DNA of 25,327 bases. Origin: a virus. The translations under genes and the position numbers were made by a program. Positions 8,776-24,624 of this stretch are shown one piece after another; position 1 is the stretch's first letter; each line of letters begins with the position of its first letter. The notes beneath the pieces are model-generated. The model had not been told where the DNA came from and ran no database searches. It worked only from the letters and a program-made list of their open reading frames with translations. The stretch spans positions 1 through 25,327 of the IMG/VR virus record IMGVR_UViG_3300025698_000051. The stretch is one strand, 5' to 3'.

Positions 8776-9082
8776 GTATCAACCTCCTTGCCTCTTTTCT
8801 ATCCGCTACAAGGTTACGATATTCAACTTCTGCATCAAGCCCTAACTCTGCACACTTAGCATATACCCAATCTGTGCTGTCGAGCAGTTGATGTAGTTGA
8901 ATAAGCAAATCCTTCTCATTAAGTTGTTTGAATGTGGCGTTAGGATTTGTCGTCCTGTAGCAATCACATTCGTAAGAAGTGTCGCCATCTTCGGTTGCGG
9001 GTATCTCAACGAAATTTCCCCTGAGTTCGATGATGTTTCCCATTTCCAAGCGTTCTGTTTTATTTAATACATTTTGTTTCAT
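8753..9082 (-). CDS. Gene coupled to the RT; possible tail-fibre-assembly-like protein
   Basis: A 109-residue protein. The N-terminal half is strand-rich with an acidic loop (ATEDGDTSYECD). The C-terminal half carries LLDSTDWVYAKCAELG followed by VADRKEARRLIREYE, a pattern like the LLxxTDW ... R ... R helix pair of phage tail-fibre assembly and XkdW-like proteins. It starts by an ATGA overlap with the reverse transcriptase stop and has AAAGGAG before it, so it is cotranslated with the RT. Two roles are possible: chaperone for the diversified fibre, or an unrecognised DGR accessory factor. It does not look like Avd. Assignment tentative. Confidence 0.5.
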   Translation of the reverse strand: MKQNVLNKTERLEMGNIIELRGNFVEIPATEDGDTSYECDCYRTTNPNATFKQLNEKDLLIQLHQLLDSTDWVYAKCAELGLDAEVEYRNLVADRKEARRLIREYEQTP

Positions 9083-10173
9083 GCTATCTCCTTTAATTTT
9101 AATTTTTCTATCATACGTTGCCTAATTTGGTTTTCATAATCAGTACCATTTATAACTTCTTTAAGGTGCAAATCTTTGATTACATGTTCTATCTCTTGAT
9201 GAAAGAATAGACAATCTGAATGTTGTGCCATACCTTTATATGATAGCACACTTCTTGCTAAATGGGGGGTTGGATCTTTCTTTACTTGAGTAATCCTCCG
9301 TCTAATATTAAGATATGTTTTACCTCTTAATACTTGTTTATTCCGATATGTTTTCATACCCAACATATCTATAAACCTATTTCTGCTCCACTTGTAAATC
9401 TTTATTTTACCTTTACCACTTTCTTTAATTTCTAAACCAATAGTAGGTAGATATTCCCTAATAAAATCAGCTACTTTCTGGGCTTTTCTTTTTGTTTTAG
9501 TAAGAACTAATATATCGTCCACATAACGAATATAGAATTTTAGTTTGAACTTCTCTTTCATAATATGGTCGAGTTCGTCAAAATAAAATAAAGCCAACCA
9601 CAAGTTCAAATAACTACCGAGAGTCACTCCTACACCATTAGGTGATTCTTTATAAAGCATCTTTTCTATAAGAGATATTATTTTCTTATCCCTTATTTTT
9701 AACTTCAATTTATCGATTAGAATTGATATAGGAATGCTTGGGTAGTATTTTCGTACGTCCATTTTTAGGACATATTTTGTACCACGTTGCTGAGACCAAT
9801 GTTTAATGAGTTTGTTACCATAACTCAATCCACGGTTTGGGATATTTGCTACGTTATGTTGTATAAACGTTGCTTCAAAATGGGGCTTCATGAGAGTCAC
9901 TAAAGCCCAATGCACCATTTGGTCACGAAATGCAGGACAGGAAATATCACGCATCTTCTTAGCGTTCTTATCCCACTTTGTCATATTTCTACATAACTGG
10001 GGTTCATATGTTTCATTGCATAATTCTTCAATAAGTTTAGCTTGTGTTTCAGAGTTATTCATCTTTTGTACAGATGCTCTTTTACGTTTGCCTTTGCTTG
10101 CGTTATGCCAACAATAAGCCATGAGTTCAGGGTCAAGTAGTTTATCATAAGTGATATCTTTCCATGTTTTCAT
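9079..10173 (-). CDS. Diversity-generating retroelement reverse transcriptase
   Basis: A 364-residue RT, usual DGR size. Visible elements: RDISCPAFRDQMVHWAL (about 75-91), PNRGLSYG (112-119), motif A KMDVRKYYPSI with catalytic D139, the motif-4 region LGSYLNLWLA (185-194), and YVDD at 217-220. The hydrophobic L185 stands where processive RTs have Gln, as in DGR enzymes. However, the usual SQ of (I/V/L)GxxxSQ is N190-L191. It copies TR RNA into cDNA with errors at adenines, and the cDNA replaces VR in the fibre gene. AAAGGAT precedes the ATG. It lies 3' of the fibre gene and TR, in the same direction. The adjacent TR/VR pair makes the DGR assignment secure. Confidence 0.93.
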   Translation of the reverse strand: MKTWKDITYDKLLDPELMAYCWHNASKGKRKRASVQKMNNSETQAKLIEELCNETYEPQLCRNMTKWDKNAKKMRDISCPAFRDQMVHWALVTLMKPHFEATFIQHNVANIPNRGLSYGNKLIKHWSQQRGTKYVLKMDVRKYYPSIPISILIDKLKLKIRDKKIISLIEKMLYKESPNGVGVTLGSYLNLWLALFYFDELDHIMKEKFKLKFYIRYVDDILVLTKTKRKAQKVADFIREYLPTIGLEIKESGKGKIKIYKWSRNRFIDMLGMKTYRNKQVLRGKTYLNIRRRITQVKKDPTPHLARSVLSYKGMAQHSDCLFFHQEIEHVIKDLHLKEVINGTDYENQIRQRMIEKLKLKEIA

Positions 10174-10433
10174 ATTTTATCCTTTACAATCAACGATGTT
10201 CGCATTATTTCAGCTACCAACCATTTTTTAGTTATTGTATTTTCCAAAAGGAGGACTAAAGATATGTTAAGAAACGTAAGGATAAGGCGAGAGCCGTTGT
10301 TAATGTTCGTGTTAGTAGGAGAGTTGTTACCATTAGAATACACTAGTGAGACGTTAGTACCATTGTTCCAATTACCACCTAAGTGAAGCACTCGCTTATA
10401 CCTTTAACCCTTTTTATAATTTTATTGCTACAT
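10174..10433 (-). ncRNA. TR-containing template RNA region
   Basis: The interval between the VR-side hairpin and the RT start holds the template repeat and about 105 bases of downstream spacer. In the Bordetella phage DGR the TR plus spacer RNA is the template and priming scaffold; here the same role is inferred. The ends of the RNA are not determined. The 5' part (10398-10433) is AT-rich on the coding strand and could hold a promoter, but no convincing -35/-10 pair is seen, so processing from the fibre transcript is also possible. Confidence 0.6.
10280..10397 (-). repeat. DGR template repeat (TR)
   Basis: 118 bases matching the 3' end of the fibre gene without gaps. Read on the - strand it is rich in AAC/AAT triplets (11 Asn codons in the frame matching the fibre). 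All 17 mismatches to VR are at TR adenines (positions 10298, 10300, 10310, 10312, 10316, 10325, 10327, 10339, 10344, 10354, 10355, 10366, 10367, 10373, 10380, 10384, 10396). The - strand changes are A to T nine times, A to G six, A to C two. By my count TR has about 35 adenines here, so about half differ. Homology breaks at non-adenine mismatches at both ends (10279 and 10398). Confidence 0.97.
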
Positions 10434-10452
10434 GGGGGCTTGCACAGCCCCC
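10434..10452 (-). other. Hairpin just downstream of VR (DGR target-site candidate)
   Basis: A perfect 7-bp inverted repeat GGGGGCT / AGCCCCC with a 5-base loop, 13 bases after the fibre stop and about 21 bases beyond the 3' edge of VR. Many phage DGRs carry a hairpin or cruciform at this place that aids target recognition. No T-run follows on the - strand, so a terminator is less likely. Caveat: related GGGGGC hairpins occur elsewhere in the window without any VR. Confidence 0.65.
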
Positions 10453-10465
10453 AAACCCCTGTGAA

Positions 10466-12310
10466 CTAAGAACGGATAAGGCGAGAGCCGTAGCTAATGT
10501 TCGAGATAGAAGGAGAGTAGATACCATTAGAACACACCAGTGAGACGCCAGTACCATTGAGCCAATAACCACCAAAGCGAAGCACTCGCGTTCCAGTTCT
10601 TGCTGAATCAAAGTAATACAAATATGCACTATAGAATGTCACACTACCTGCTACAGCACCCCAGAGAATCGGTACATCAATCATACCTCCTTCTACCTCG
10701 ATGCCTTCTCTTATCTGCTGATATCCATTAGCCGCATAATCTCCTATTCCCAAGTCAACCCAGCCGTCTGCACCTCTAGGGTCTGTGATGTTATACTTTG
10801 TGGGGTCTGCACATCCGTAGTACCGCCCATCGTAACGCATGAATCCTGCGTTGAATTGCCAGACGTTACCCCACAAATCCCAGATTCCTCTGTATGCGAC
10901 GTGGCTCATATTTGCACTACTATATTGCTCTATGTACCCACTCCCATCACCAATTGTATCGAAGATGGTCTGAGGTACTGACTGACCCCATGAAACTATT
11001 GTATTACCAATTGCAATGTTGAAAACAGCACCGTCAATAGTTATTGTCTGAGTGCCATCGCCATTGTCTGTTACATCGGTAATGAGTCTGTTTTGAGCTA
11101 TGCTGTTATTTGTGTATGATGTACCAATTTGTACGGTCATGCCAACATGAAAATTAGTTAAAGTATCTGGGATGGTTATCGTGTTGCCATCAGTTGATAT
11201 TGCAACAGCTTCATAGCTAGCTCCTGAACCGTATGGCATCCCAGAGTTTATACCCTGTCCGTACATACCCTTGTGATTGAGAGAGCCACCTTCTATAGTC
11301 GATAACATAAATATAGAGTGCATGGTGTTGCTATCGTACATGCTCCACTCGCTATCACCCTGCGCGTACATGCCCGTAATAAAATTAGTGTAACTTATAT
11401 TCGTTTCTGGTGCTTCACCAACTCTTGACCTGTATTCACTACCAACTTTTGATGCTGGCATGGAAGCAATGAGTTGTTCTGCTTTCTGCTTGAAACCAAG
11501 ACGCTTTTTTCTAGAGATATACAAATATCTGTGACCACCAGAGCGATAGTCCTTGTACCAAAATTCTGGAATGCGTGTCATTAGTTCACCGTCGAAAGCA
11601 TCGTACCCTGCATCAGTCTGAAGTATTTTCACCCCAGCCACAGAGACTTTCACGTGCTTCATCTCAGACCAAGGATACACCGAGTCGAAACTTGAAGTGA
11701 TAGCTTTTGTACCATCTGGAGCAGTTACTGTCATTCCTACAGCATCAAGCAATCTGGTGTTCGCACCTGTAGTTTCGTTGATATCCAATCCGTAAACTCG
11801 TGTATCTATGAGTTCGTACAATTCCTTGGCATCATTGGCACTGGCAATTTTACCGAGTCCACCGATAAAGTCGTCTACAATGTCGTCTTTTACTGCTTTC
11901 TTCGTATCCAACTCCTCCAACGCTCCACCAATCGTAACAGCATCAATCCCACCAACAGGAGTAAATACTGCACCTTCGGAATTGTCCTTTATAGATTTGA
12001 GTACTGAGCCAGCAGTGTTTACATCAGCTTCAAGAGTTGCTATCGCATCCGCATTATCTTTGACCGTTTCGTCAGTCCAGCCTACGCCCTTGATTTCATC
12101 ATTAATGAGGTCCTGTGCATCACTGACAGGCTTATCAGCATCACTTACATTATCAACATTCCCAAGCCCCACATTAGCCTTGGTCATCAAGGTTTCCGCA
12201 GCTATCTTCTTAGCTACGCCATTCTGATCAAGCCCTATCTTTTCAGTGCCATTCTTCAATAATTCTGTTGCTTCTGTTGGATTTTCTCCAAACTTCTTAG
12301 GTGCTGTCAT
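10466..12310 (-). CDS. DGR-diversified receptor-binding tail protein (C-type-lectin fold C-terminus)
   Basis: A 614-residue protein. The N-terminal part has the tail-fibre motif NVGLGNVDNVSDADKPVSDA (about 45-64) and helical trimer-like repeats, so it probably attaches to the tail. From about residue 215 a formylglycine-generating-enzyme/C-type-lectin-like domain follows, with GIWDLWGNVWQF (about 485-496), and it is interrupted by a strand-rich insert near 375-440. The last 40 residues (about 574-614) are the VR and end FGGYWLNGTG...YGSRLIRS. This matches the variable proteins of phage and Treponema DGRs, which display variable residues on the ligand-binding face. ATG 12310 has GGAGG nearby; an in-frame TTG upstream does not. 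One base separates it from the preceding stop. Confidence 0.9.
   Translation of the reverse strand: MTAPKKFGENPTEATELLKNGTEKIGLDQNGVAKKIAAETLMTKANVGLGNVDNVSDADKPVSDAQDLINDEIKGVGWTDETVKDNADAIATLEADVNTAGSVLKSIKDNSEGAVFTPVGGIDAVTIGGALEELDTKKAVKDDIVDDFIGGLGKIASANDAKELYELIDTRVYGLDINETTGANTRLLDAVGMTVTAPDGTKAITSSFDSVYPWSEMKHVKVSVAGVKILQTDAGYDAFDGELMTRIPEFWYKDYRSGGHRYLYISRKKRLGFKQKAEQLIASMPASKVGSEYRSRVGEAPETNISYTNFITGMYAQGDSEWSMYDSNTMHSIFMLSTIEGGSLNHKGMYGQGINSGMPYGSGASYEAVAISTDGNTITIPDTLTNFHVGMTVQIGTSYTNNSIAQNRLITDVTDNGDGTQTITIDGAVFNIAIGNTIVSWGQSVPQTIFDTIGDGSGYIEQYSSANMSHVAYRGIWDLWGNVWQFNAGFMRYDGRYYGCADPTKYNITDPRGADGWVDLGIGDYAANGYQQIREGIEVEGGMIDVPILWGAVAGSVTFYSAYLYYFDSARTGTRVLRFGGYWLNGTGVSLVCSNGIYSPSISNISYGSRLIRS
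10474..10591 (-). repeat. DGR variable repeat (VR) at the 3' end of the fibre gene
   Basis: The target copy, offset 194 bases from TR. The shared 17 bases at its 3' side (10474-10490, containing GGCTCTCGCC on the - strand) are the likely initiation of mutagenic homing (IMH). The 17 nucleotide differences from TR produce 13 amino-acid changes (for example TR-encoded NWNNGTN becomes YWLNGTG) and one silent change. No stop codon arises, since AAC/AAT templates cannot give one by A substitution alone. Confidence 0.97.
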
Positions 12311-12311
12311 A

Positions 12312-12611
12312 TTAAGCCTCCACTCTTGCAAGACACTTCCATATCATGCGTTTTTGCACATATATCTTTTCGCTTACAATATAGTCAATCTCGACATCAT
12401 ACATGCCAGCCGGCACAGTAAAATCACATTGTAAGATTGCTATACCTGTCTCGCCACTTGTGGTAACATCAGCATCAATACTCTGGCTTGCATCACCAGT
12501 AGTACTGTGCAATATTAAAGCAACTCCGTTATCTCTGATATCAATAGCATTACCATCTTGAGTAATGGTCACTCTATATATCTTGCTCGCCCCTGTGTAA
12601 AATTCATACAT
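12312..12611 (-). CDS. Small beta-rich tail protein
   Basis: A 99-residue protein, mostly predicted strands: YEFYTGASKIYRVTITQDGN, then VALILHSTTGD, then a PAGMYDVEIDYIVSEK segment. This resembles small immunoglobulin-like or BppU-N-like domains that sit in baseplates and connect receptor-binding proteins. The ATG at 12611 overlaps the TAA of the preceding gene (TAATG), so it is chosen over an in-frame TTG 24 bases upstream that lacks a ribosome binding site. It lies directly upstream of the fibre gene and may be its adaptor. Function inferred from fold type and position. Confidence 0.6.
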   Translation of the reverse strand: MYEFYTGASKIYRVTITQDGNAIDIRDNGVALILHSTTGDASQSIDADVTTSGETGIAILQCDFTVPAGMYDVEIDYIVSEKIYVQKRMIWKCLARVEA

Positions 12612-14516: not shown

Positions 14517-15674
14517 TTATCCTATGAACTCAAGCTTGCTGTTGTGAATATATATTAAATCAGAATCAGTATCACAACTTATTAGATTTGTTCCGTCGAA
14601 TGTTAGCCCGTGTGGGTCTGGGCTCGCAAAGATAGATAATATTGTTGAAGTAACTCCTGAATGGACATATATTAAATTAGAACCAATATCACAACTTATT
14701 AGATTTGTTCCGTCGAATGTTAGCCCGTATGGGGCTATTGATGGGCTCGCAAAGCTAGAAAGAATTGTGGACGAGATACCATCATGAATATAAATCCTAT
14801 CACTATCAGCATCACAACTTATTAGATTTGTTCCATCGAATGTAAGACCGGTTGGGACTATTGATGGGCTCGCAAAGCTAGAAAGAATTGTGGACGAGAT
14901 ACCATCATGAATATAAATCCTATCACTATCAGCATCACAACTTATTAGATTTGTTCCATCGAATGTAAGACCACTTGGGTATGTAGACGGACTTGCAAAG
15001 CTAGATGATATTGTATCTGTTATTCCGTCGTAGATATATATCAAATCAGAATCAGCATCACAACTTATTAGATTTCCGTTTATACTATCATATGCTAAGC
15101 CTGTTGGCTTTGTAGACGGACCTGCAAAAAGAGTTGACATACTGCTACCCGGTAATTTATAACTCTGGAATCCATTAAATGTTGGCGAGGTCAATCCTGC
15201 AACACTAACTCCCCCCTCCCTATCCACAGTCTGAAACCCACTCCCCTGCCAGAGGTTCATAATCTTCCTCTTGGTCAGTACAGCACCAGCCTTGACAAGC
15301 TGATATGGCAATACTTGATATGATCCATTATACAGCCCATTATTAACAGCATTCCAAGCATACCCACTCAAGTCATTTATCCAAGTTGCTATAAGCGTAT
15401 CCCCTGAAGCCTCAAGCCTGATATACCAAGTCCCATCTGTTGGCGTACCACTTATCACATAATCCTCAGTGTCAACCCTGTACAGATACCCACCATGCGA
15501 TAGGTACGTACCCAAGGCCAGAGCTGGTATAGTGGTACTATTCTCCCACTCCGTCAGCGCCATACTAGGCCCTGCAAGCTGTCTTGTAAATCCTGCTATA
15601 TGTGCATTCTGAGCGTCATAATCCCCTATATTTTCCGGTGGTGTTACAAATTGTGCTACTTTACTTATACTCAT
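14517..15674 (-). CDS. Tail protein with beta-propeller-like tandem repeats
   Basis: A 385-residue protein. The first 170 residues are an unrelated strand-rich region, probably the attachment module. From about residue 185 five repeats of 39-41 residues follow, each with GLTFDGTNLISCDADSD, then (R/L)IYIHDG and FASPS. The repeat has the look of NHL or TolB-type propeller blades, which often bind carbohydrate or protein. Five blades would make a small or incomplete propeller, or a trimer could close it. Its place between distal tail and hub genes suggests an accessory host-contact protein. ATG 15674 has GGGAGG upstream. Confidence 0.65.
   Translation of the reverse strand: MSISKVAQFVTPPENIGDYDAQNAHIAGFTRQLAGPSMALTEWENSTTIPALALGTYLSHGGYLYRVDTEDYVISGTPTDGTWYIRLEASGDTLIATWINDLSGYAWNAVNNGLYNGSYQVLPYQLVKAGAVLTKRKIMNLWQGSGFQTVDREGGVSVAGLTSPTFNGFQSYKLPGSSMSTLFAGPSTKPTGLAYDSINGNLISCDADSDLIYIYDGITDTISSSFASPSTYPSGLTFDGTNLISCDADSDRIYIHDGISSTILSSFASPSIVPTGLTFDGTNLISCDADSDRIYIHDGISSTILSSFASPSIAPYGLTFDGTNLISCDIGSNLIYVHSGVTSTILSIFASPDPHGLTFDGTNLISCDTDSDLIYIHNSKLEFIG
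14526..15126 (-). repeat. Tandem repeats of about 123 bp within the tail gene
   Basis: The motif ATCACAACTTATTAGATTT (+ strand) recurs at 14571, 14688, 14811, 14934 and 15057, giving periods of 117, 123, 123 and 123 bases. Segments 14735-14849 and 14858-14972 are identical over 115 bases, pointing to a recent unit duplication. The period is in frame throughout. Confidence 0.95.
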
Positions 15675-15677
15675 ATA

Positions 15678-16475
15678 TTACCTCGCCTCCCTTATTCCAA
15701 TGTCAAAATCATATTCATGCCCATTCTTTTTAGGTTCCCATGGTGCTGTCAGTACAGCATACAGTGGTTCCATAAAGTCATGGTTCTCTTCGAACGGGTC
15801 TACCCATACATGATAACCCACGCCAGCCGTTTTGTATATGTTTTTATAGGTATTCATATCTGCCCTGCTTACTGCCCTTATAGTCCACTCGTGCTTTCGC
15901 ATGGGCTCGATATACTGTTGGAGAACTTGGCCACCCTCTGCTTCTGATACAAGGCTAACATCCTTGTACTCTTCCTTCCACGTATTTATTGGGTCCGGCA
16001 GAGTGAGACTATCACCTATGCCAAGGCCACCGAGATAGAACCCAGAAGGTCCCTCAATATCAATAATCACCGTCTTGATCTGCATCACTGGGAAGTGCCA
16101 CCCTACAGGGTCATAGACATGGTTGCTCAACCGGTCATAGTAGCCATAGTACTCAGTATCCCAGCCATAATAATGCTCGATCGGATAGCCATAATAGTGG
16201 CCAACATCTCCATCCTCAAAGTAGATATAATCCAATATATCATCTGCATCATTCTTAAATGTCACGCTCATCTTGGTGAGGTTAGTATATCCCCAGAAGA
16301 AGGATGACACTGGTTTCTCAGCATCAAATACCAAAGTAATGGTATCTGTTATCGCTGTGCTCTGATATCTCTTTCTCAAGTATGGACTCTTGAGATTAGC
16401 TACAGGATAGTTACTTGAGCTGTTTATTGTTGTTATATCAGCATCAAGTACCTGGTTATCAAATAATATCTTCAT
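15678..16475 (-). CDS. Distal tail-like protein with YYG repeats
   Basis: A 265-residue protein located right after the tape measure gene, the standard position of the distal tail protein. The N-terminal part (SSNYPVANLKSPYLRKRYQS at about 20-39, then ITLVFDAEKPVSSFFWGYTN) resembles discoidin-like phage proteins that open with a YPxxNL segment. An insert at about 90-120 has HYYGYP, HYYGWD and EYYGYY repeats. The C-terminus includes KHEWTIRAVSRADMNTYKN, typical of distal tail proteins. The ATG at 16475 is preferred (AGG upstream; its start overlaps the mini-ORF stop by ATGA). A TTG two codons earlier is possible. Confidence 0.65.
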   Translation of the reverse strand: MKILFDNQVLDADITTINSSSNYPVANLKSPYLRKRYQSTAITDTITLVFDAEKPVSSFFWGYTNLTKMSVTFKNDADDILDYIYFEDGDVGHYYGYPIEHYYGWDTEYYGYYDRLSNHVYDPVGWHFPVMQIKTVIIDIEGPSGFYLGGLGIGDSLTLPDPINTWKEEYKDVSLVSEAEGGQVLQQYIEPMRKHEWTIRAVSRADMNTYKNIYKTAGVGYHVWVDPFEENHDFMEPLYAVLTAPWEPKKNGHEYDFDIGIREAR

Positions 16476-16513
16476 AAGCAAAAACCTGCCTTTGTATCAA
16501 ATAATATTTTCAT
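16472..16513 (-). CDS. 13-codon mini-ORF from a duplicated start region (relay B)
   Basis: Reads MKILFDTKAGFCL. Its ATG overlaps the tape measure stop (ATGA, 16510-16513), and its TGA overlaps the start of the distal tail gene (ATGA, 16472-16475). Its first 19 bases (ATGAAAATATTATTTGATA) match the first 19 of the downstream gene with one mismatch, 38 bases apart. GAGG lies 8 bases upstream of its start. Whether it is translated is unproven; the double coupling is the argument for it. Confidence 0.5.
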   Translation of the reverse strand: MKILFDTKAGFCL

Positions 16514-21804: not shown

Positions 21805-22151
21805 GATGCACCATATAACTTTTTCAAATCTGCTTGAAATAATGGAAGCATTTCATTGATAACAGGACGTATTGCTTCATTCCGCCTGTCATTTTCTAGC
21901 TCAAGACTTATCCCATATTGCTGAGTATGTGCCAAGAAAAATCCCACCACGTCACCGTCTTTGAAGGCCTTGCTGAATACTGTATCCTTTGCAATTCCAG
22001 TTCTGTTTTGCCAAAACTCATTATTCATCTGTCTAACTTGAAAAGATTGAAGAGCCTTGGCAGAGTATAAAAGACAGAGAGCATACACTTGTACACGCCT
22101 TCTCTCATATATACTCGCTATATTTCTACCAACATTATGTGCGGTTGCCAT
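21801..22151 (-). CDS. HK97 gp10-like head-tail connector (neck/tail completion) protein
   Basis: A 116-residue protein with the family's recognisable middle: FWQNRTGIAKDTVFSKAFKD, then DVVGFFLAHTQQYGISLELEND, then RRNEAIRPVINE. This is the HK97-gp10/minor capsid pattern (W-x-N-x-T ... HxxxYGxxLE ... IxP). Such proteins help complete the neck or tail. The ATG at 22151 lies inside the preceding 56-residue gene (17-base overlap). Confidence 0.75.
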   Translation of the reverse strand: MATAHNVGRNIASIYERRRVQVYALCLLYSAKALQSFQVRQMNNEFWQNRTGIAKDTVFSKAFKDGDVVGFFLAHTQQYGISLELENDRRNEAIRPVINEMLPLFQADLKKLYGAS

Positions 22152-22305
22152 CTGCTATTAACTCCCCTGTGATAATATTCAACAAGTCTAATGATTCTTG
22201 AAATGTTAAATACTCTTTCTCGAAATACGGATTAATGATATATGCATCAGTCCTTTGAGGCTTATCATCGGGTCCCTCATCAGAGGCACTCATTGGTATT
22301 TTCAT
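22135..22305 (-). CDS. Small coupled protein, 56 residues, between neck genes
   Basis: Reads MKIPMSASDEGPDDKPQRTD and continues with YFEKEYLTFQESLDLLNIITGE to ADGNRT. AAGGAG lies about 10 bases before the ATG, and its start overlaps the TGA of the preceding mini-ORF (ATGA at 22302-22305). Function unknown. The gene is real-looking because it fills the gap between the head stopper and gp10-like genes without a break and is coupled at both ends. Confidence 0.6.
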   Translation of the reverse strand: MKIPMSASDEGPDDKPQRTDAYIINPYFEKEYLTFQESLDLLNIITGELIADGNRT

Positions 22306-22350
22306 AAGAATAAAACTCCTTGTCTTATTTCACTCATTGGTATTTTCATA
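22287..22350 (-). repeat. 20-bp direct repeat carrying a duplicated start codon
   Basis: TATGAAAATACCAATGAGTG (- strand) occurs exactly twice, at 22331-22350 and 22287-22306, 44 bases apart. Each copy contains a start codon followed by Lys-Ile-Pro-Met-Ser. The bases flanking each copy differ, so the exact match is limited to 20. Confidence 0.95.
22302..22349 (-). CDS. 15-codon mini-ORF from a duplicated start region (relay A)
   Basis: Reads MKIPMSEIRQGVLFL. Its ATG overlaps the stop of the head stopper gene (ATGA, 22346-22349), and its TGA overlaps the start of the 56-residue gene (ATGA, 22302-22305). AAGGAGG lies 4 bases before its start, and the AAGGAG of the next gene lies inside it. Its first six codons copy those of the downstream gene exactly. 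Translation is inferred from coupling, not proven. Confidence 0.5.
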   Translation of the reverse strand: MKIPMSEIRQGVLFL

Positions 22351-22729
22351 CAGCCTCCTTCAATGGTGCTTGATACCCGATAATCTTACCACTCATGGTA
22401 AGTGGGTCGACTACGCCTACTGCGTATTTCTTGTCTCTCCATGAAAAAGTCTCGCCCTCATTGATACCGCCCTTATAGTCCATAATTATGAACCGATATA
22501 GATTTGATGTAAACCCTGCTGGGCTTGACTCTAGGCTAGATGGACCCTTTTTATCATGACTTAATCTCACATTATATACGTATGGCATTGAATCACCATA
22601 AGGATCTTCAATCATATTTCCAAAGCCATCATTAATAATTGGTTTTCTCATTATCGTTATTTTTGATTTGTCAAGTTTTATTTGTGCTAATATTGATAAT
22701 CTTGCTTGTGAAACCATTCCTCTGCTCAT
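22346..22729 (-). CDS. Head closure / head-tail stopper protein
   Basis: A 127-residue strand-rich protein: SKITIMRKPIINDGFGNMIED, then RLSHDKKG, then FIIMDYKGGINEGETFSWRDKKYAVG. This fits small SPP1 gp16-like stopper proteins, which have an ITIxR start and a G(D/E)xFxWxxKKY end. It overlaps the preceding gene by ATGA at 22726-22729. The function is inferred from this pattern and gene order (after the connector, before the gp10-like gene). Confidence 0.65.
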   Translation of the reverse strand: MSRGMVSQARLSILAQIKLDKSKITIMRKPIINDGFGNMIEDPYGDSMPYVYNVRLSHDKKGPSSLESSPAGFTSNLYRFIIMDYKGGINEGETFSWRDKKYAVGVVDPLTMSGKIIGYQAPLKEAV

Positions 22730-23193: not shown

Positions 23194-23263
23194 AAATCCT
23201 CTTATGTCAATGTTGTGCTTGACATAATCTTAATCTTAGGTGTATCATTACTTATCTAGTTCT

Positions 23264-23287
23264 TTATTTCATCTCATACCTCCTTTC
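23264..23287 (-). promoter_or_regulatory. Stand-alone strong Shine-Dalgarno with a two-codon ORF (leader element)
   Basis: GAAAGGAGG at 23287-23279, then ATG AAA TAA at 23272-23264 after 6 bases; a second frame gives ATG AGA TGA. No gene starts here. GAAAGGAGG equals the STAB-SD element known from Bacillus cry leaders, where bound 30S subunits protect mRNA from 5' decay. A similar stabilising role is inference. Confidence 0.4.
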
Positions 23288-23314
23288 CCCCTGTTCATCG
23301 CAGGGGGTTTTTTT
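23287..23314 (+). terminator. Hairpin with T-run, oriented against the local genes
   Basis: CCCCCTG / CAGGGGG with a 7-base loop and TTTTTTT at 23308-23314 is a textbook terminator on the + strand, yet all surrounding genes are on the - strand. It could stop antisense transcription toward the capsid gene. On the - strand the same hairpin would cap the 5' side of the GAAAGGAGG leader element. Confidence 0.7.
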
Positions 23315-23360
23315 GTGCATAAAAATAAAACATACATTATCAAATTCTTTTTTTTGCATA

Positions 23361-23388
23361 AAAAAAGAGGAGCAACTTAATGCTCCTC
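23361..23388 (-). terminator. Rho-independent terminator after the capsid gene
   Basis: On the - strand, GAGGAGCA and TGCTCCTC form a perfect 8-bp stem with a 6-base loop, followed by T6 or more. It lies about 20 bases after the capsid stop and should end most capsid transcripts. The gap 23194-23409 (216 bases) holds this, the opposing hairpin and the leader element, and no convincing promoter. Confidence 0.85.
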
Positions 23389-23409
23389 GTATAATCTCGT
23401 AAATCTTGC

Positions 23410-24624
23410 TTAACTTTCGGTAGGTAGTGTAATCTCGATGATTGCTCCGTATCCAGCGCCAACGGAAGTCGAAGGGAAAGATGATCCCAAGAAAACCTTG
23501 GTATACTCACCCTGGACACCATACCAAGCACGTTCCTCTGTAGAAAGTTGGAGAACTGATCCTCGGCCTGTTTCCATAGTCAGAGGTCGCTTGTTCCCAA
23601 CCCAGAGATATTCTTTAGGTACGAATAGGTAAGCCTTTCCAGCAGTTACGCCAGGGAAGGAGAGAGTCTCTTTCCCCCAAGTAAAGCCATCAGTAATACC
23701 ACGATCATACTCAACGATACTAGCGATAGGCAGAGCCTGGCGGTTATTACCACGAGCACCTGCGGCACCATTAAGATCAAGCTGGCCATTGACGACACGC
23801 TCGATATCCCATGTATTTGCGCTATTACACAAGAGCATCATGGAAGGTACAGAGATAGGTCTATCTGTTTGAATATCTTTGAGACCTTTCAATTTCTTGA
23901 CTGCCTTTCTCAAAGTTGTATACATTTTCTCGTCAAAGGTTGTGCTCGCTGTAGCATCGGCTGCTTGGCTTTGAGTCGCAACATAGGTTGCCCCAACGAT
24001 CATCCCCACAGTCTTACTATTACGTGCATCGGTGTGAGCATCAACAACAGCTTCCAAAACCTTCTGCATATTGTGCAAGGTGTTGTAAAGCATATTCTTA
24101 ATGCTATCTTTCCAACCAAGAGCCAAGATTTCCATAGGGAATGTATCCACATTGGCAAGATTCTGTTCGATGAGGGGGACACTGTCATTAGTCCCACTAA
24201 TCTTCATAAACTTACCACGATATTTCATGATGTCTCTGAGGGTTACATTCTCAGGGAAGTCAAAGTTAGTAATCTCGGTTGCTATCATGCTAGTCAAGTC
24301 AGGTGATTCCTGAGCACGTCTAGTCATGTCGATAAAGATCTTCGACACGAGAGCAGCGAGGGTCTCAGCATCAGGAGCTTGTGCAGCATTCTCGGCAACG
24401 AACTTCTTCTGTAGAACTTTGATTTCATCCCAGAGTTTGACATTACCAGCAGAGCCAACCCAGTGATTATTGGTCATTTCAACAATTGCTTGATTCAAGA
24501 CAGTTGGGTTTGCGGCAGTAAGGTTCTCAGTGGCGTTTCCACTAAATACTACTGCATGAGTAGCAGTTTTATTTTTGAGACGCTCTTCGATGAGTGCGTC
24601 ACGATTCATAATTTTAATAGGCAT
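23410..24624 (-). CDS. Major capsid protein
   Basis: A 404-residue protein with no membrane segment or signal. It is followed by its own terminator and by neck genes, the usual place for the capsid gene. Segments such as IKNMLYNTLHNMQKVLEAVVDAH (spine-helix-like) and the C-terminal VEYDRGITDGFTWGKETLSF with KAYLFVPKEYLWVGNKRPLT fit an HK97-fold coat protein whose last third holds strand-rich P-domain pieces. The start MPIKIMNRDALIEERL has AAGGGG upstream. The N-terminal 100 residues are helical and may act as a scaffold-like delta domain or remain uncleaved. Assigned from size, order and expression signals as well as sequence. Confidence 0.75.
   Translation of the reverse strand: MPIKIMNRDALIEERLKNKTATHAVVFSGNATENLTAANPTVLNQAIVEMTNNHWVGSAGNVKLWDEIKVLQKKFVAENAAQAPDAETLAALVSKIFIDMTRRAQESPDLTSMIATEITNFDFPENVTLRDIMKYRGKFMKISGTNDSVPLIEQNLANVDTFPMEILALGWKDSIKNMLYNTLHNMQKVLEAVVDAHTDARNSKTVGMIVGATYVATQSQAADATASTTFDEKMYTTLRKAVKKLKGLKDIQTDRPISVPSMMLLCNSANTWDIERVVNGQLDLNGAAGARGNNRQALPIASIVEYDRGITDGFTWGKETLSFPGVTAGKAYLFVPKEYLWVGNKRPLTMETGRGSVLQLSTEERAWYGVQGEYTKVFLGSSFPSTSVGAGYGAIIEITLPTES

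Follow-up and report, generated by a model that had tools for sequence, protein, structure and literature searches.

Why should two late genes of a phage, which overlap directly in most relatives, be held apart by a short open frame that begins with a copy of the next gene's start? The question was raised by the junction between the tape measure gene and the gene that follows it (junction B) in the window, a 25,327-base IMG/VR record analyzed here over its whole length, in which the late genes lie on the minus strand. Junction B was checked on that strand and the earlier description of it was confirmed. The tape measure stop (TGA, 16512-16510) lies inside an ATGA beginning at 16513, and from this ATG the predicted 13-codon frame runs to the start of the next gene (16513-16472), where its own TGA (16474-16472) again shares an ATGA, in this case with the downstream ATG at 16475. 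The 19-base near-repeat with one mismatch and a period of 38 was also found as described, with 18 of 19 bases equal between 16513-16495 and 16475-16457, and the sole mismatch is AAA in copy 1 against AAG in copy 2, both of which encode Lys. The start at copy 2 is 34 nt from the tape measure stop and is preceded, at a distance of 8 nt, by a Shine-Dalgarno (SD)-like sequence with a duplex energy of −8.1 kcal/mol. Identification of the upstream gene was based on matches to Pfam PF10145 (E 1.2e-35) and PHROG 1533 (tail length tape measure; E 7.6e-78).

Table 1. Coordinates of the two junctions, their flanking genes and one further ORF of the window.
Feature	Position	Strand	Remarks
Junction A, upstream gene, 127 aa	22346..22729	-	ORF list; relatives
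Junction A, copy 1 of start	22350-22331	-	20/20 equal to copy 2
Junction A, mini-ORF A MKIPMSEIRQGVLFL, 15 codons	22302..22349	-	Same layout as junction B
Junction A, SD-like ACAAGGAGT in spacer A	22323-22315	-	−8.0 kcal/mol, 9 bases before new ATG
Junction A, copy 2 of start	22306-22287	-	20/20 equal to copy 1
Junction A, downstream gene, 56 aa, MKIPMSASDEG...	22135..22305	-	Homologues in 7 relatives
Junction B, upstream gene, tape measure protein, 1099 aa	16510..19809	-	PF10145, PHROG 1533
Junction B, copy 1 of downstream gene start, 19 nt	16495..16513	-	Overlaps tape measure stop as ATGA
Junction B, mini-ORF B MKILFDTKAGFCL, 13 codons	16472..16513	-	ATG at 16513 overlaps tape measure stop
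Junction B, spacer B, 19 nt	16476..16494	-	SD-like AAGGCAGGT at 16492-16484
Junction B, copy 2 of gene start, in frame with downstream gene	16457..16475	-	18/19 equal to copy 1
Junction B, downstream gene, 265 aa from ATG at 16475, starts MKILFDNQVLDAD...	15678..16475	-	Distal tail gene position; beta-sandwich model
RT-like ORF	9079-10173	-	Layout

The same layout is present at a second junction in the window (junction A). Here the stop of the upstream ORF is at 22348-22346, the repeat is perfect (20/20) with a period of 44, the spacer is 24-25 bases, and the ATG of the next gene, at 22305, is 40 nt from the upstream stop. At both ends of both mini-ORFs the stop and the start overlap by four bases as ATGA, giving a −4 spacing at each step.

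The gene downstream of junction B had been labeled as a distal tail gene. This label was not borne out by the sequence, since the 265-aa protein has no match in Pfam or PHROG, and it rests on the position of the gene after the tape measure gene. No matches were obtained by blastn of the region against INPHARED or by tblastn with the same protein. A structure model (pLDDT 79.8) was prepared from a 12-sequence homologue alignment, and CBM32/galactose-binding-like folds were among its best PDB matches in Foldseek, with query TM-scores that did not exceed about 0.4; the predicted fold thus resembles CBM32/galactose-binding beta-sandwich domains. In four sequences of the downstream protein family, residues M1, K2, F5, D6, and N7 are invariant. 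The 385-aa ORF directly after this gene contains four tandem repeats of 117-123 nt (14545-15075, minus strand), which translate to repeated NLISCDADSDRIYIHDG-like units.

The possibility that the doubled starts are chance repeats was assessed in a sample of 143 non-redundant loci totaling 2.07 Mb, with 2833 genes called as ORFs. Most of the loci share the tape measure family, so that the sample does not stand for all phages. A single-protein scan added one locus only. Twenty-nine of the loci had been found by a repeat pattern and were dropped, leaving 114, and starts within 200 bases were excluded from the control draws. In the 114 loci, start doubling of at least 15/16 bases was observed in 2 of 4324 pairs of a stop-overlapping start and a downstream start, both of them in the window, while none of 86,260 control draws reached this level. 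A chance repeat was therefore ruled out and, as the original prediction had it, junctions with doubled starts are commoner than in the control. Over all 143 loci the corresponding values were 2/4771 start pairs and 0/95,100 control draws. A relay was defined as a stop overlap of the ATGA type (NTGA, where N is A, G, or T) leading into a frame of 6-40 codons that overlaps the start of a longer ORF. There were 28 such stop/mini-ORF/start relays in the 143 loci; the starts are equal at 16/16 and 15/16 bases in the two relays of the window and at no more than 10/16 in the other 26, which are spread over the 142 other loci and lack a doubled start. Direct repeats of at least 18/19 bases with a period of 25-99 numbered 23 in 1.75 Mb of the other loci, 20 of them with periods divisible by three, and the remaining three were at no such gene junction. 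Taken together, the doubling tests indicate that the repeats are real events, clustered in one phage.

The ancestral state of the junctions was studied in relatives, that is, related loci including prophages, of which 13 contain both junction B genes and 7 contain the junction A pair. In 12 of the 13 the downstream start is formed by the NTGA of the tape measure stop, and in the remaining one (L021) it directly abuts a TAA stop; the junction B insert was present in none of them. Copy 1 is therefore the ancestral start and copy 2 the new one. The AAA codon of copy 1 is also that of the L018 start, ATGAAAATATTATTTGATAAT. The earlier argument that two cases in one late operon point to a mechanism or a selected outcome thus held in part: as repeats they are far beyond chance and absent from the 142 other loci, but a recurring relay device was not supported, being absent from the relatives at junction B (0 of 13), with two spacers whose likeness is no greater than that of other upstream regions of the phage. 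At junction A the start is −14 to +2 bases from the upstream stop in five of seven relatives, and in the other two, L018 and L006, other sequence lies between the two genes, 177 bases of it in the first (L018:6369-6549) and 945 in the second (L006:6528-7476), indicating that junction A takes insertions and is a recurrent insertion point. An assembly artefact was considered unlikely, as both inserts are also present in a second contig (L002/L014) from another IMG/VR record, 99.92% identical over 10,051 bases. When the doubled MKILFD pattern was sought IMG/VR-wide, L014 alone was found; a doubled ATGAARATHCC start was found in 39 contigs, and only in L014 was it at a stop-ATGA/gene-start junction. 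In the data searched, the inserts are thus private to one phage lineage, a real and rare arrangement.

The construction of the inserts was analyzed further. Only 19-20 bases are repeated, with the rest of the 38- or 44-base period unrepeated. A simple tandem duplication of the whole period was not observed, and comparison of the spacers with their upstream and downstream flanks gave P values of 0.07-0.96 over three scores. The spacers have no match of more than 9 bases elsewhere in the window and, searched alone, no match beyond 14 bases to any other locus. Compared with one another, spacers A and B gave a likeness score of 7.0 (shuffle P 0.0096) and, when ranked among the upstream regions of 16 window genes, a tied rank of 7 among 120 pairs. 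This likeness is ordinary for upstream regions of the phage, and a common inserted element was rejected. Nothing is shared by inserts A and B beyond SD and AT-rich likeness, and no other copy of either insert was detected by an IMG/VR-wide pattern search or by blastn-short, nor was any dispersed repeat family found.

The spacers can form small hairpins that include the new SD, and the proportions of shuffled sequences folding as well were 0.02 and 0.07, which is at most suggestive. None of 200 shuffles folded as well as the RNA around junction A (22250-22385, minus strand; z −2.96), whereas the RNA around junction B is unremarkable (z −0.02), and an RNA structure consistent between both junctions was therefore rejected. 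In the junction A RNA, the new SD lies partly in a hairpin loop and partly at the edge of that loop.

Other features of the window were recorded. On the minus strand, a terminator-like hairpin and a second GC-rich hairpin follow the 404-aa ORF in the capsid position (23260-23410); the same region contains a 17-nt near-repeat that includes an ATG (23348-23364 and 23309-23325, period 39) and an isolated AAAGGAGGTATGAGATGA without an obvious gene. A 116-nt repeat pair, 86% alike, is located at 10280-10395 and 10474-10589 (minus strand), and a 621-aa ORF (10466-12331, minus strand) carries the second copy at its 3′ end. From its layout, the region of 9079-10589 together with 10466-12331 (minus strand), which includes the RT-like ORF, is a candidate diversity-generating retroelement.

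Several of the coincidences on which the original prediction drew do not count as evidence of their own. Both periods are indeed 2 modulo 3, but with a period of any other phase a mini-ORF could not close in the ATGA of the following start. Both mini-peptides do begin Met-Lys-Ile, though this is the copied N terminus of the downstream families (mostly MKILFDN and MKIP/MKLP), and the final Leu before TGA, also present in both, needs only TT before ATGA. The phase, the Met-Lys-Ile, and the final Leu are therefore not separate coincidences and are for the most part consequences of the duplication. The one observation left in favor of selection is that both frames close in ATGA: random spacers do so with a probability of ~ 0.19-0.20 each, and both together with P ~ 0.04, which gives modest support.

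The overlap in the relatives, the insertion, the duplication, the open frame, and the ATGA at both ends are established here. One interpretation of these data, to which we incline at slightly better than an even chance, is that two private insertions separated the genes and were tolerated because the mini-ORF would keep termination-reinitiation coupling intact. In the ancestor, the two genes at each junction would have overlapped as ATGA, and ribosomes would have reached the second gene by termination-reinitiation. The inserted 38 or 44 bases, made up of a second copy of the downstream gene's opening 19-20 bases and of 19-24 bases of new spacer, would then have shifted the working start downstream and supplied a new SD-like site, while the old start would have remained at the upstream stop and opened a 13- or 15-codon frame whose stop shares an ATGA with the new start. 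After finishing the upstream gene, a ribosome could restart, translate the mini-ORF, and restart once more at the downstream gene, and the insert could be tolerated since the frame would bridge a gap too wide for direct coupling and the duplicated start would restore the N terminus of the protein. The DNA event itself was probably an illegitimate duplication or a template switch with filler, and because the spacers match neither the flanks nor the window beyond 9 bases, no template for it is visible.

It is from these sequence features that we infer the coupling and its part in keeping the inserts. One study of six E. coli and Haloferax gene pairs describes near abolition of termination-reinitiation coupling by gaps of ~ 20 nt, and states that reinitiation may need no more of an upstream gene than its last 15 nt (PMC10666635). 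By that limit, the gaps of 34 and 40 nt at the phage junctions would be too wide for direct coupling. Note, however, that copy 2 has an adequate SD of its own at both junctions and could start without coupling, and that, with a joint chance of ~ 0.04 that both frames close by luck, the mini-ORF may be incidental. The copy 1 starts still have a good SD (−8.5 and −11.7 kcal/mol), but this would be equally expected of an unselected leftover. The coupling interpretation also leaves the occurrence of two inserts in a single phage without explanation.

The main rival to coupling-preserving insertions is a pair of neutral scars, that is, two small duplications with filler in which the duplicated start rescued the gene, the frame and its ATGA end were luck, and the mini-ORF is inert. 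We regard this as possible but rather doubtful. That both frames should close by luck is not a negligible chance, the new starts carry their own SD, the arrangement is absent from the relatives examined, and the 26 relays without doubled starts in the 142 other loci make the frame alone commonplace; against this, the frame and the ATGA on either side of it are kept in both inserts, and copy 1 has hardly changed (20/20 and 18/19) even though, in a scar, it would be free to drift. It could also be that the junctions are recombination joints between two relatives, formed by unequal modular exchange, with the spacer representing the natural leader of the second parent. Such an exchange would account for the SD within the spacer and for a similarity that sets in exactly at the start codon, with 0-1 bases before it, and the extra sequence of L018 and L006 at junction A means that other leaders do exist there. 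We consider it unlikely, however, given that a separate leader is present at junction B in 0/13 relatives, that no match of more than 14 bases to another locus was obtained with the spacers by themselves, and that gene-by-gene similarity to 15 relatives, which is not a full phylogenetic test, displayed no visible shift of affinity at A or B.

A dedicated device or a mobile element, with the insert either under selection for a relaying or attenuating role in translation or spreading by targeting ATGA overlaps, as proposed for mycobacterial interspersed repetitive units (MIRUs), is very improbable. The presence of two cases at ATGA overlaps within one operon would fit this explanation, as would the spacer hairpins that include the new SD and the folding of the RNA around junction A. 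However, the RNA around junction B is unremarkable in its folding, the likeness of the spacers is ordinary (rank 7 of 120), each insert duplicates its own gene, so that there is no common element, and the pattern search of IMG/VR yielded no other copy. There is a similarly slight prospect that the doubled start serves as a reversible switch, in which recombination or slippage between the repeats deletes exactly one period and restores the ancestral ATGA overlap. Were this the case, the population could hold both a directly coupled and a relayed, separately initiated form of the tail gene, and could vary the ratios of the tail proteins in this way.

Coupling-preserving insertions would be of wider interest because evolution cannot easily part genes that overlap, as an insertion both breaks the coupling and cuts off the start. 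The phage junctions would represent a way around this problem, by duplicating the start and bridging the gap with a short frame. They would supply a natural system in which a two-step hand-over of ribosomes can be tested, and phages might insert genes at tight junctions in this way. In the open-licence literature, as covered by titles and the starts of abstracts, no report of doubled gene starts in phages was found. The closest known parallel in working is the MIRUs, described in PMC12548453 as start-codon insertions with an ORF of their own that is coupled to the gene at −4, an arrangement that probably makes the insertion less harmful. Like these, the phage inserts are short insertions at a start codon; they lie at start/stop overlaps with relatives lacking them (12/13 overlapping and one abutting at junction B), and the ORF of each insert overlaps the gene start at −4 at both junctions. 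However, MIRUs form a repeated family, whereas each phage insert copies the start of the gene that it precedes, the two spacers bear no relation to one another, and no more than two copies were found, both in one phage; no repeat family was found, and the inserts are not MIRUs. The ATGA at both mini-ORF ends and the SD-like sites upstream recall the termination-reinitiation pairs described in PMC6728339 and PMC10666635, although in the phage a 13- or 15-codon frame stands between genes that overlap directly in most relatives. A short ORF that would serve only to drive the next gene is likewise familiar from uORF coupling, as outlined in PMC12548453, but the phage mini-ORF follows another gene within an operon and copies a gene start. 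The start-associated sequences (SAS) of cluster K mycobacteriophages also place a Shine-Dalgarno core directly ahead of start codons (PMC3203893); these, however, are one conserved 13-bp repeat at many genes, whereas the phage junctions share only ordinary SD and AT-rich sequence, and among the upstream regions of the 16 window genes the A/B likeness does not stand out. Set beside these systems, the arrangement looks like a small, rare variation on known translational coupling rather than a new mechanism.
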